The translations under genes and the position numbers were made by a program. The notes beneath the pieces were generated by a model, which did not search any database, was not told the origin of the DNA, and was given only the letters and a program-made list of their open reading frames with translations. Source: an uncultured bacterium (GTDB taxonomy: Bacteria; Edwardsbacteria; AC1; EtOH8). Taken from it: 64,000 nucleotides of DNA. Each line of letters begins with the position of its first letter. Within the stretch, counting starts at the first letter, position 1. Below, one piece after another: positions 20,641-26,534 of this stretch. The stretch spans positions 558,001-622,000 of the forward strand of contig CALMGM010000005.1 of NCBI GenBank assembly GCA_937863685.1, read 5' to 3'.

Positions 20641-20686
20641 ATTTAGTATTAAATATACCGCTTTGGCTAGTGGTTGTCAAATAAAA
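20641..20686 (-). promoter_or_regulatory. Duplicated promoter copy (direct repeat of 17434-17479)
   Basis: Twenty-six bases (20641-20666) are identical to 17434-17459, and the match continues with a few changes to 20686. It holds TTGACA (20675-20680) and TATATT (20652-20657) 17 bp apart on the minus strand. The second arm of the operator present at 17414-17425 is missing here. Confidence 0.75.
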
Positions 20687-20946
20687 TATTCGTGACCATA
20701 CAGCCCTAAATGGGCAACGATCTGTACGTCATTTGTAACCTTTTTTACGGCATGCGTGACCCTCTTTCCGCTGTGCGGACCCGCCTTTCCACCCTGCATA
20801 ACCCGCTTTTCCATATCCGCTATTCGCTTTCCGCTGTGCGGACCCGCCTTTCCGGCATGCGGGACTTGTTTTCCGGAATGTTTGGTCACTTTACCGGCAG
20901 GCGCAACCTGTTTTCCGGCATATATAAAGGCTTTCCCGTTATGCAT
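20677..20946 (-). CDS. Heptapeptide-repeat small protein, function unknown
   Basis: 89 residues, nearly all made of a 7-residue unit [AS]-G-K-x-[VIAG]-x-[HP], about nine copies (AGKQVAP, AGKVTKH, SGKQVPH, AGKAGPH, SGKRIAD and so on). The DNA is a degenerate 21-bp tandem repeat, and the plus strand is also open over 94 codons because of this. Minus is preferred because all neighbours lie there and the unit is more regular. The repeat extends one unit upstream of the ATG (AGKGVMH), so the start is unsure. Lys/Gly/His-rich composition suggests binding to an anion, nucleic acid or metal, but no family is recognised. Confidence 0.5.
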   Translation of the reverse strand: MHNGKAFIYAGKQVAPAGKVTKHSGKQVPHAGKAGPHSGKRIADMEKRVMQGGKAGPHSGKRVTHAVKKVTNDVQIVAHLGLYGHEYFI

Positions 20947-23362: not shown

Positions 23363-23685
23363 GTCCGCATCCTTTCATTTTATTGTTGAATGTTTGTTCT
23401 CCCGGATATTCAACCCGGGGCGGCCAGTTGTTTATGCGCCTTTTTCGTCGTATGGCCGGGGCTCTTGGATTGCTTCGTTTGATGTTCTTGGATGCTTTCC
23501 TCGCAATGACCCCGGCACTATATCGCGGCATTCCGGTCCCCCGCCTGCGGCAATTTTGTCCTGCTAAGCACAAGCCGGTCGTTTTGGCCGGAGCAAAATG
23601 ATCGGCCGGGGCAAGGGGGCCCGGATCCCTGTCGGAATTTATCCCGCACTTGATGCGGGACAGGGGTGACATGCCTGCCCTGTCC
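23363..23685. other. Intergenic region with palindromic repeat text
   Basis: No supported gene. It carries a hairpin CCCGCACTTGATGCGGG near 23645, preceded and followed by a GGGATCCCTG / ACAGGGGTGACA frame similar to the mini palindromes elsewhere. Confidence 0.55.
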
Positions 23686-23862
23686 CTATCTGGCCGCCGC
23701 CTTCAACCCGGCATAGATAATGACCCCCGCCGCTCCGGCGCCCAGGGCGGTGATCAGGAGGATGGTCAGCATCGCCTTCAGGGTCCGGAACGGTTTGGAT
23801 CCGAATGGCCGGCCCCCGGCCGGAGTGATGTTTTGGCGCCTGGATCGTATATCTTTTTTCAT
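23686..23862 (-). CDS. Small single-pass membrane protein in the peptide cluster (58 aa)
   Basis: The ATG at 23862 gives 58 residues: a basic N-terminus (MKKDIRSRRQ), a middle GGRPFGSKPF part, and one membrane helix at about 31-50 rich in small residues (LLITALGAGAAGVIIYAG). It follows the six-cysteine precursor gene by 44 bp on the same strand. It may be an immunity, export or second-peptide component. No strong ribosome site is visible, since the hairpin at 23874-23898 lies just upstream. Confidence 0.5.
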   Translation of the reverse strand: MKKDIRSRRQNITPAGGRPFGSKPFRTLKAMLTILLITALGAGAAGVIIYAGLKAAAR

Positions 23863-23873
23863 GAATATCCGGT

Positions 23874-23898
23874 GCCGGGAGATCAAAGATCTCCCGGC
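23874..23898 (+). terminator. Strong hairpin after the precursor peptide gene
   Basis: Perfect 11-bp stem GCCGGGAGATC/GATCTCCCGGC with a 3-nt loop. The T-run (GTTTTTTG) follows on the plus strand; on the minus strand the run of A precedes the stem. For the minus-strand gene it would work as an mRNA end-stabilising hairpin rather than a classic terminator. Confidence 0.55.
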
Positions 23899-23906
23899 GT
23901 TTTTTG

Positions 23907-24032
23907 TTATGCGCAAACGCAATGCAGCAAGTTGATGGCGCAAAGAGTCCCGCAGCAAGGATTCCCCAAAGAACCGCTCTCCTCTTTGCACTCGCCCTTT
24001 AATGCCGTGATGCCCTTATTCACTAATTCCAT
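23907..24032 (-). CDS. Six-cysteine RiPP precursor peptide (41 aa)
   Basis: The ATG at 24032 is preceded by AAGGAGGTGAT, a full match to the 16S anti-Shine-Dalgarno, 4 nt before the start; this settles the start over the longer frame. The leader-like part is MELVNKGITALKGE. The rest contains Cys at 15, 26, 27, 31, 38 and 40 with Gly, Ser and Asn (GNPCCGTLC, then LLHCVCA at the end). It lies 59 bp after the radical SAM/SPASM gene, the expected partner for crosslinking such a Cys-rich core (for example thioether bonds). The modification is an inference. Confidence 0.8.
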   Translation of the reverse strand: MELVNKGITALKGECKEESGSLGNPCCGTLCAINLLHCVCA

Positions 24033-24058
24033 CGTATCACCTCCTTTTATTAAAAGAT

Positions 24059-24081
24059 CTGCCGGTTTTAAAACCCGGCAG
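24059..24081. terminator. Hairpin between the maturase and precursor genes
   Basis: CTGCCGGTTTT pairs with AAAACCCGGCAG (one bulged C). TTTTT follows on the plus strand and ATCTTTTAAT on the minus strand. On the minus strand it may act as a partial terminator that tunes precursor against maturase levels. Confidence 0.55.
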
Positions 24082-24091
24082 TTTTTACCTG

Positions 24092-25411
24092 TCAGCTTCG
24101 TTCCAGTTTTTTCAGCAGCCAGTGCTCCCAGTAACCGCACATCTCATCATTGGGGACCTTGAGCCTTTTCCGGGCCGAGGGGCATCCCCCCATGCATATC
24201 GGCAGGTAGGCGCAGTTCCCGCAGGCCGCCTCTTTGAAGGGGTTGTTCTGGAACCACTCCCAATATTTCTGGTTGGGGACCAGCTCTCCGTTCTTTATAC
24301 AGCCGACCTCCTCCCCGGGATCGGTCCTCTCGGCGCACTTGTAGACCGCGGCCCCGGGGCCGATAAAAAAGGTCTTCTGCTGGTCCGCCCCGCAGTAGTT
24401 CAGCTTGGTGTAGAAGACGTTTGACCGGCTTTCCAGGTTGCTTTTTTTATCGTCCAGTTCCCTGATAACTGCGTAGATCGACTGCTGGATCTGCTGGTGC
24501 TCCCTTCCGGTGAAGCAGTCGGTGTCCTGGTGGCGCTCCATCTCTCCGCCCATGTACTGCCGGAGATTCCCGATGCTGATGTTCACCCTGGGGCTCCTGA
24601 AGACCGGTTCCTTTTTGATCAGCTCCACCACCCCCGGGTAGTTGTTCCGGTTGGTGTTTATCCGCACATCCACCTGGGAAAAATGCCTTTCGGCGGTGCG
24701 GATGGCATCCATCACCTGCCGGAAGGTGCCGGCCCCGTTCTTTAATCTGCGGGTGCTGTTGTGGTCGGCCTCGTTCCCGTCGATGGAGATCTGGAGCCCG
24801 TCGATGTTGGCCTTCCGCAGCCGGTCGGCCGTCCGCTCCGTCAGCAGGTAGCCGTTGGTAAGTATGTAGTCCCTGGCCCTTTCGATGTCCAGCTCCCGGC
24901 ATATCCGGCCGATCTCGGAGGACAGCCTTTCGATCAGGTCCAGGCACAGCAGCGGCTCCCCGCCGTAAAGCCCGTAGCTGAAGGCTTCCGGCTTCATCTC
25001 CTTCAGCTCCTTTCTCAGAAACAGCTTGATCTCGGCGATGTCGTTCTCGGACAGCCGCTGGTGCGATTTGTTGTGCTCGAAACAGTAGGGGCAGGCGAAA
25101 TTGCAGTTGGTGGTGGGGATTATGGTGATGGTCAGTCTCTTGCCGCCGAACACCCCCCGGTAATAGCGGTATTTGAGCATCTCCATCTCGTCGATGCCGG
25201 CCTCCAGCAAAAACCCGTTATCCCGCAGCAGGGAAACTTCGCTTTCGGCCAGGGCGCTTATCCTTTGGGGGTCCTCCAAAACGCCCCTGATCTTTCCGGC
25301 GTGCTCCCGGTCCAGTTTCAACAGGCCGGTGGTAAAAGTGTTGTACAGCAGGGTCTTCTCCCTGTTCTCCTGCCAGACATTGAACCGTGAAGCCTTGTAA
25401 GTTGCCGTCAT
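24092..25411 (-). CDS. Radical SAM/SPASM peptide maturase
   Basis: ATG 25411 is chosen (AAAGGGAGGCAGG just upstream), giving 439 residues; the frame is open back to 25507. The radical SAM cluster C-x3-C-x2-C lies at 103-107-110 (NCNFACPYCFE). SAM-binding strands follow, with YGGEPLL and ISIDG. A C-terminal SPASM domain binds extra Fe-S clusters (CGNCAYLPICMGGCPSARK plus a last MCGYW). The first 90 residues contain a PqqD/RRE-like region. It is of the kind that modifies ribosomal peptides, and the 41-residue six-Cys peptide downstream is the likely substrate. Confidence 0.9.
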   Translation of the reverse strand: MTATYKASRFNVWQENREKTLLYNTFTTGLLKLDREHAGKIRGVLEDPQRISALAESEVSLLRDNGFLLEAGIDEMEMLKYRYYRGVFGGKRLTITIIPTTNCNFACPYCFEHNKSHQRLSENDIAEIKLFLRKELKEMKPEAFSYGLYGGEPLLCLDLIERLSSEIGRICRELDIERARDYILTNGYLLTERTADRLRKANIDGLQISIDGNEADHNSTRRLKNGAGTFRQVMDAIRTAERHFSQVDVRINTNRNNYPGVVELIKKEPVFRSPRVNISIGNLRQYMGGEMERHQDTDCFTGREHQQIQQSIYAVIRELDDKKSNLESRSNVFYTKLNYCGADQQKTFFIGPGAAVYKCAERTDPGEEVGCIKNGELVPNQKYWEWFQNNPFKEAACGNCAYLPICMGGCPSARKRLKVPNDEMCGYWEHWLLKKLERS

Positions 25412-25907
25412 CCTGCCTCCCTTTAAGTTGTTGGTGCTTTCTGTTTCCGGGGCCCGCCCCGGCTTTTCCCTGCAAAAAAACGCCGCCCTGCGACCCAGCC
25501 AGTCCAACCGAGTGCCGCATGGCGGCTATCCCAAGCACCGGTCCTTATGCCTGGTGAATTCCGGCTTCAAACTCTTTTCACCAGGGAACGCAGATGCTTT
25601 CTGCTTTATGTACGTTAAACTGCACGCCTGTCCCGCATCTCCCCTAATAAGGGGAGAACCAGGGGGCTGTCCCAAGGCAAATCCTTTTAATAAATATTTG
25701 CTTTTCGTCATTCTGAGCCCGGCAAACCTGCCCGCCAAGCCGAAGAATCTTTATCGGCGTAGATCCTTCGTTTGCTAAACTAAATGCCCCTCTCAGGATG
25801 ACGCGCCAAAAACTTTATGAATTTTAAGCTTTGTACTTTAAACCAAAGACGCAGATGCTTCTGTTCTTTGAACCTTAGACTTTGAACTTTAAACTGATGC
25901 ATGTTCC
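25412..25907. other. 496-bp intergenic region with a long-distance repeat
   Basis: No gene is supported. It contains the second copy of the 116-bp repeat (25706-25821) and a CCCGCATCTCCCCTAATAAG phrase near 25631 that matches 7666. AT-rich ACTTTAAAC-type text as in other gaps follows. Confidence 0.6.
25706..25821. repeat. 116-bp dispersed repeat, copy B
   Basis: Same orientation and about 97% identical to 7725-7840, 18 kb away. Both copies sit in gene-poor gaps. Confidence 0.85.
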
Positions 25908-26534
25908 TCATCCCCTCCCGTACTCGCTCCGGGCGGCAAAGCCCTCCATCCGCATCAGGGCCCGCAGGCTTTCCAGCCGGTCCTGCAGCCGGGATATCCG
26001 GGTCCCCATCTCATCCAGCCGGATGTCCCTCACCCCCAGCTTCTTCAGGATGCGATCCATGTTATGGTAGTGGAAATATCCCTGCAGATACTCGGCCAGA
26101 TCGTTCCGGCGCACCGTCCGGAAGAACAGCCGGTAGCCGGACCCCTGCCCTCCCTGGCCGGTCAGGCGGCGCCAGATCTCTTTTTTGGTCTTGGCGCCGG
26201 AGAAGTACCGCAGCCAGCGCTCCAGGCACAGCTCCCGGGCCAGGAACAGCCGGTCATCCCGGGCCCTTTGCAGCTGGCCCTCGATGACGGCCAGCTCGCT
26301 GAAGATGTTTATCGGCGCCCAGATATAGGCCTCGTTCATCCCCCGGCCGGCCTCCTTGAGGAAAGAACTGAGCTGGTAGCGCTGCTTGCAGCGGCAGCAG
26401 TTCATCTCCCAATGCTCGTCGAACAGGCCGCCTTTATCGTAGTAGCTGTGGACAGTATAATAGCTTTTGCCGCAGGGGCATTTGTACTTTTGCTGCTGAT
26501 TGGGCGATGCCATGTCTGATCCTCCGGAAGGCAT
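25908..26534 (-). CDS. Hypothetical zinc-ribbon protein
   Basis: 208 residues. The N-terminus has two Cys pairs, CPCG near 19-22 and CCRC near 46-49, arranged like a zinc ribbon. The rest is helical and rich in Arg, Leu and Glu, with a coiled-coil-like end (RISRLQDRLESLRALMRMEG). It could bind nucleic acid. The alternative ATG at MASPNQQQ (about 8 codons in) is possible. It is last in a three-gene run with the 111-residue protein and the LCAT-like hydrolase. Confidence 0.6.
   Translation of the reverse strand: MPSGGSDMASPNQQQKYKCPCGKSYYTVHSYYDKGGLFDEHWEMNCCRCKQRYQLSSFLKEAGRGMNEAYIWAPINIFSELAVIEGQLQRARDDRLFLARELCLERWLRYFSGAKTKKEIWRRLTGQGGQGSGYRLFFRTVRRNDLAEYLQGYFHYHNMDRILKKLGVRDIRLDEMGTRISRLQDRLESLRALMRMEGFAARSEYGRG

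Follow-up and report, generated by a model that had tools for sequence, protein, structure and literature searches.

A probable two-gene RiPP cassette of a radical SAM/SPASM maturase and a cysteine-rich precursor in a sparsely sampled bacterial phylum

In a 64-kb stretch of DNA from a 2.72-Mb genome (C5:558001-622000; the window), a gene encoding a radical SAM/SPASM enzyme is followed directly by a gene for a 41-residue cysteine-rich peptide. We conclude that the two probably make up a horizontally moving RiPP cassette, in which a maturase of the Clo7bot/CefB/geopeptide superfamily would convert the precursor into a thioether-crosslinked, ranthipeptide-like peptide. Within modified-peptide systems of a known type, the pair forms a new, small branch. 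Its features are as follows.

24092 to 25411, minus strand: radical SAM/SPASM peptide maturase, 439 aa (ORF, Pfam Radical_SAM, AlphaFold)
25142 to 25411, minus strand: N-terminal domain of the maturase, about residues 1-90, a predicted RiPP recognition element (AlphaFold, Foldseek)
25082 to 25105, minus strand: radical SAM cluster motif C103-x3-C107-x2-C110 (invariant in 50 aligned relatives)
24137 to 24394, minus strand: SPASM domain with seven invariant Cys (alignment of 50 relatives, family profile)
24059 to 24081, minus strand: hairpin in the spacer between maturase and precursor (folding)
24037 to 24046, minus strand: Shine-Dalgarno sequence of the precursor, AAGGAGGTGA (sequence)
23907 to 24032, minus strand: precursor peptide, 41 aa (counterparts behind the maturases of genomes G002 and G006)
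23874 to 23898, no strand assigned: strong hairpin behind the precursor, with a T-run on the plus strand (folding)
23686 to 23862, minus strand: 58-aa single-helix membrane protein, a neighbor outside the cassette (synteny in genome G003)

The precursor gene lies downstream of the maturase gene, both on the minus strand, across a gap of 59 bp; in two relatives this spacer measures about 22 and 92 bp, and we do not put its hairpin forward as a family feature. The 59-nt spacer has a folding energy of -17 kcal/mol (z -3.0). The hairpin at 23874-23898 (-22.2 kcal/mol, z -4.9), which separates the precursor from the membrane protein gene, is terminator-like on the plus strand only. An Rfam search for known RNA elements gave no match. 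Beside the window cassette there is no transporter, protease, or immunity gene. An earlier note on this DNA had given the coordinates of the region and the cysteine positions of the 41-aa peptide, and all of these were correct.

A cysteine-rich peptide recurs behind related maturases

The precursor, MELVNKGITALKGECKEESGSLGNPCCGTLCAINLLHCVCA, starts with the leader MELVNKGITAL, has Cys at positions 15, 26, 27, 31, 38, and 40, and terminates in the core ending CCGTLCAINLLHCVCA; F, Y, and W are all absent. In a whole-genome search, the combination of the Shine-Dalgarno sequence and the leader-start pattern occurred once, at this precursor. As a chance test, we searched for ORFs of 25 to 60 aa that contained four or more Cys and had a Shine-Dalgarno match of at least 8 bases. 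The precursor was the sole ORF in the 64-kb window to pass. When 20 kb around each related enzyme in G002 and G006 was searched, one ORF apiece passed, directly behind the enzyme, encoding MELLNKGVNAFTSSQHYGQKGDTMFALPCSSCCPDNVSCSDPRYVCQ and MEILRTGKHNIYTTEAESENAAPISCCADNLCIPTKVCY, respectively. A further 169 kb, drawn from both related and unrelated genomes, contained none.

When the three peptides were aligned, M1, E2, G7, C31, N34, V39, and C40 were invariant. All three begin with a leader of the form ME..xxG and finish with C-x2-N-[LV]...VC-x, and the cores are otherwise variable. Leader similarity between the window and G002 peptides was reached by none of 200,000 shuffles; that between the window and G006 peptides is modest (2,574 of 200,000 shuffles). 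A conserved leader start, a changing core, and the same position behind the enzyme are together the signature of a RiPP, and, as far as the sequences can tell, the 41-aa peptide is very probably the substrate modified by the maturase. A search for orphan precursor copies elsewhere in the phylum gave none that was convincing.

The earlier note had read the locus as a RiPP cluster, and this reading was borne out, with a peptide kept behind related enzymes, variable cores, an enzyme that groups with peptide maturases, and a predicted fold like that of CteB. Neither of the outcomes that the note had named as speaking against it was seen: the peptide is conserved behind the G002 and G006 enzymes, and the maturase does not group with enzymes acting on other substrates.

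The maturase is predicted to resemble a thermocellin synthase

A Pfam search of the maturase found Radical_SAM (67 bits) and no RRE (RiPP recognition element) sequence model. The Cys of the CxxxCxxC motif (C103, C107, and C110) and of the SPASM domain (C340, C359, C397, C400, C406, C410, and C425) are invariant among the 50 aligned relatives. The AlphaFold model (pLDDT 91.2, pTM 0.89) places strands at residues 5-33 and helices at 35-64 and 75-88 in the N-terminus. With Foldseek, the top structures were those of CteB (5WHY and 5WGG, E 7e-16), followed by TigE (8VPO), anSME, SuiB, and ChlB. The alignments to CteB, over 456 to 470 columns, are nearly full length, and both CteB structures carry an RRE; an N-terminal recognition element is thus predicted by the model for the window enzyme also. 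A profile of the 50 relatives searched against the PDB likewise had CteB as its best match (E 1.3e-48). Motifs, predicted fold, and the CteB match all uphold the earlier description of a SPASM maturase with a likely recognition domain.

CteB is the thermocellin synthase, whose recognition domain binds the leader as a strand; in its auxiliary cluster, a site toward the substrate is left open, whereas the auxiliary clusters of anSME and SuiB are fully ligated (PMC8326336). Between SPASM Cys 1 and 2, anSME has an additional Cys that is absent from the family profile. Because this Cys is missing and there are only seven, one auxiliary cluster of the window maturase is expected to have an open site, which would liken it to thioether synthases and set it apart from anSME and SuiB.

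The maturase is a divergent branch of a known superfamily

The enzyme is carried by 3 of the 10 genomes of the phylum that we examined, namely, that of the window, G002 (44% identity), and G006 (33%). In the tree, the three enzymes form one well-supported clade (support values 100/97 and 100/99), which sits in a nine-row group (97/91) with enzymes from Bacteroidota, Spirochaetota, Bacillota, and archaea. Several peptides of this group end in Cys clusters, such as CCNGCSCTT and CSCSC.

To look for closer enzymes, we scanned the genomes of about 85,000 species. Among the matches listed, relatives showed at most 32% identity and came from many phyla, with the wider superfamily spanning many bacterial and some archaeal ones. 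As the scan relied on two short peptide patterns and considered the matches listed, relatives closer than 32% may exist. The scan's relatives have as neighbors short Cys-rich peptides starting with M-[KE]-[FYW]-[ILV]-[ILV]-[KN]-P. One locus, L068, is a true Clo7bot system (enzyme, 775 bits; peptide, 52 bits against a cutoff of 31), and Geobacter-type relatives have geopeptide-like ORFs with V/L..xG..CC (the enzyme at L109 scores 622 bits). By sequence inspection, ABC-transporter-like genes adjoin two relatives (L126 and G231b). Approximately unbiased (AU) tests rejected neither Clo7bot (p-AU 0.30) nor geopeptide (p-AU 0.09) enzymes as the sister group. The clade lies inside the Clo7bot/CefB/geopeptide maturase superfamily as a divergent branch.

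The nearest NCBIfam models of the window maturase all describe maturases of Cys-rich peptides: CefB (NF038107, 198 bits), Clo7bot (TIGR04334, 195 bits), TIGR04463 (167 bits), FlmE/OhkG (131 bits), geopeptide (121 bits), and PapB (100 bits). Every score is far below the curated cutoff, and the window peptide matches none of the precursor models, including TIGR04333. The earlier note's remark that the core matches no nameable class can be made more precise: the maturase falls, as a divergent branch, in this superfamily.

Three further observations were made in this survey. A Nanoarchaeota genome encodes a related maturase and an 80-residue candidate precursor ending in LDACGCTGNGSCN (L067:1760-2002). 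A shortened RRE/radical SAM/SPASM paralogue of 394 aa, retaining CDQNCSGC, occurs in most genomes of the phylum (L035:8793-9977, minus strand; G000:C5, about 1,023,800-1,025,000; also L037, L038, and L039), with a TPR-like gene adjoining and no precursor near; it may belong to the core genome and act on another substrate. A second peptide family combines a leader like that of Clo7bot with a core motif conserved as LYG[IV] or CYGI (L031:8263-12568, L156:2563-5971, L057:393-512, and L069:3802-3912), and at L031 and L156 these peptides adjoin an additional radical SAM/SPASM enzyme, for which nif11-class 3 is the best NCBIfam model (about 250 bits; cutoff, 725).

Comparison with named systems

With Clo7bot (TIGR04333 and TIGR04334), the window pair shares the enzyme architecture, an adjoining short Cys-rich peptide with a strong Shine-Dalgarno sequence, and a leader start of the form M-[KE]-hydrophobic-hydrophobic-x-x-P/G with a turn residue at position 7. 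However, the maturase reaches only 195 of the 600 bits of the TIGR04334 cutoff, the peptide has no TIGR04333 match, and its leader, ME-LV-NK-G, has G at position 7 where Clo7bot peptides have P. The CC motif and the VC-x ending also differ from the regularly spaced Cys of Clo7bot. The geopeptide system (TIGR04280) has in common with the window pair the two-gene layout and a leader in which V/L-x-x-G precedes a CC pair. Here, too, the enzyme score is far from the cutoff (121 of 400 bits); in addition, geopeptide cores stop soon past the CC pair without further Cys, and the peptide precedes the enzyme in the geopeptide loci examined.

CefB is the top NCBIfam model, but its cutoff of 600 bits is missed, and the Cys in the window peptide are not spaced at every fifth residue. 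With CteB and thermocellin, a ranthipeptide of the SCIFF type, the likeness is in the RRE, radical SAM, and SPASM fold and in six Cys per about 45 residues. Identity over the fold is, however, about 17%, the leader and the Cys pattern are unlike, and the crosslink of the window peptide is a prediction.

The pair moves independently of its neighbors

The pair occupies three different genomic sites in three species. The Zn-ribbon gene upstream of the window cassette (25908-26513) is present in G001, G002, and G003 (60 to 70%), in none of which the enzyme is found there. In G002, the pair lies between two genes that are 187 bp apart in G006 and 634 bp apart in G001. The G002 enzyme gene has a GC content of 28.8%, versus about 54 to 56% in its surroundings and at another G002 locus; that of the window enzyme gene is 58%. 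From the different insertion sites, the relatives in which such sites lack the pair, and the 29% GC copy in G002, we conclude that the two genes are an accessory unit that moves horizontally and was acquired or moved independently.

Contrary to the earlier note, the 58-aa membrane protein does not belong to this unit. Its gene has no recognizable Shine-Dalgarno sequence. In G003, a sister species, a homologue (46%) neighbors the Zn-ribbon gene at a distance of a few hundred bp, and neither enzyme nor peptide lies in between; the maturase-peptide pairs of G002 and G006 occur without the protein. It is a resident neighbor of the cassette, and a role as exporter or immunity partner is ruled out by this synteny.

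An inverted repeat of 94% flanks the region (23652-23668 and 25623-25639). Its downstream copy belongs to a palindromic repeat, CCTGTCCCGCATCAAGTGCGGG, which is scattered through the genome at eight places; we therefore rejected the terminal repeats as a boundary and claim none for the cassette. Elsewhere in the window, an ORF on the minus strand (20677-20946) consists of short repeats around xxAGK/HSGK (MHNGKAFIYAGKQVAPAGK...).

Proposed product and alternatives

In the mechanism that we propose, the leader (MELVNKG...) would dock on the N-terminal recognition domain of the maturase. A 5'-deoxyadenosyl radical from the radical SAM cluster would abstract hydrogen from one of the core residues. 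A core Cys, bound at the openly coordinated auxiliary cluster, may then close a thioether with the resulting carbon radical. A non-alpha, ranthipeptide-like crosslink is favored over an alpha one. Leader cleavage and export would be left to host proteins, since no genes for processing and export are encoded beside the window cassette. Aromatic chemistry of the cyclophane, PQQ, streptide, or darobactin kind is impossible within the peptide, since it lacks F, Y, and W.

The fold and the expected open site do not fix the chemistry, and in sactisynthases, too, the auxiliary cluster is openly coordinated (PMC8326336). The same pair could make a sactipeptide, with Cys sulfur bonded to alpha carbons, which we consider unlikely. 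SkfB is among the Foldseek matches, but at rank 23, and both family profile and fold are much nearer to CteB. The PapB ranthipeptide model scores 100 bits, while no sactipeptide model is among the best 25 NCBIfam models for the window enzyme. Thr, Asp, and Asn are known ranthipeptide acceptors (PMC8326336), and residues of these types stand 2 to 3 positions past core Cys in all three peptides (window, T29 and N34; G002, D35/N36 and D41; G006, D29/N30 and T35). The product is most likely a thioether-crosslinked ranthipeptide rather than a sactipeptide.

That the Cys are a conserved core feature of all three peptides, and that the missing SPASM ligand fits thiolate binding, argues against a RiPP pair with some other modification (thio-oxazole formation, epimerization, cyclopropanation, or an unseen bond) and Cys that are free, in disulfides, or metal binding. 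We regard this as quite improbable, even though radical SAM/SPASM enzymes catalyze many reactions, TigE is the next structure behind CteB, and our literature search found no account of Clo7bot or geopeptide chemistry. It is hardly credible that the locus is no RiPP system, with a chance ORF downstream of a radical SAM enzyme that modifies proteins (for example, a sulfatase maturase). This would account for anSME among the structural neighbors, but the model for sulfatase maturases gives just 76 of the required 349 bits, the 169-kb background contained no such ORF, and the recurrence of the peptide behind related enzymes already contradicts this reading.

Significance

The favored reading is thus a mobile pair making a ranthipeptide-like product. 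The clade has three members only. For its biological role, signaling or antagonism are the likeliest guesses. We would suggest only tentatively, and with more doubt than confidence, that the clade constitutes a thioether-RiPP subfamily of its own, in which the enzyme closes a core that begins with CC and contains Asn (C-x2-N-[LV]...VC-x) into an undescribed bond pattern, and which has spread as a minimal two-gene mobile unit through species of a sparsely sampled phylum. With two genes in less than 1.6 kb and a peptide without aromatic residues, the cassette is a small, expressible test case. Its place is between systems of the Clo7bot and geopeptide types. If its product were defined, this would hint at what the wider superfamily makes.
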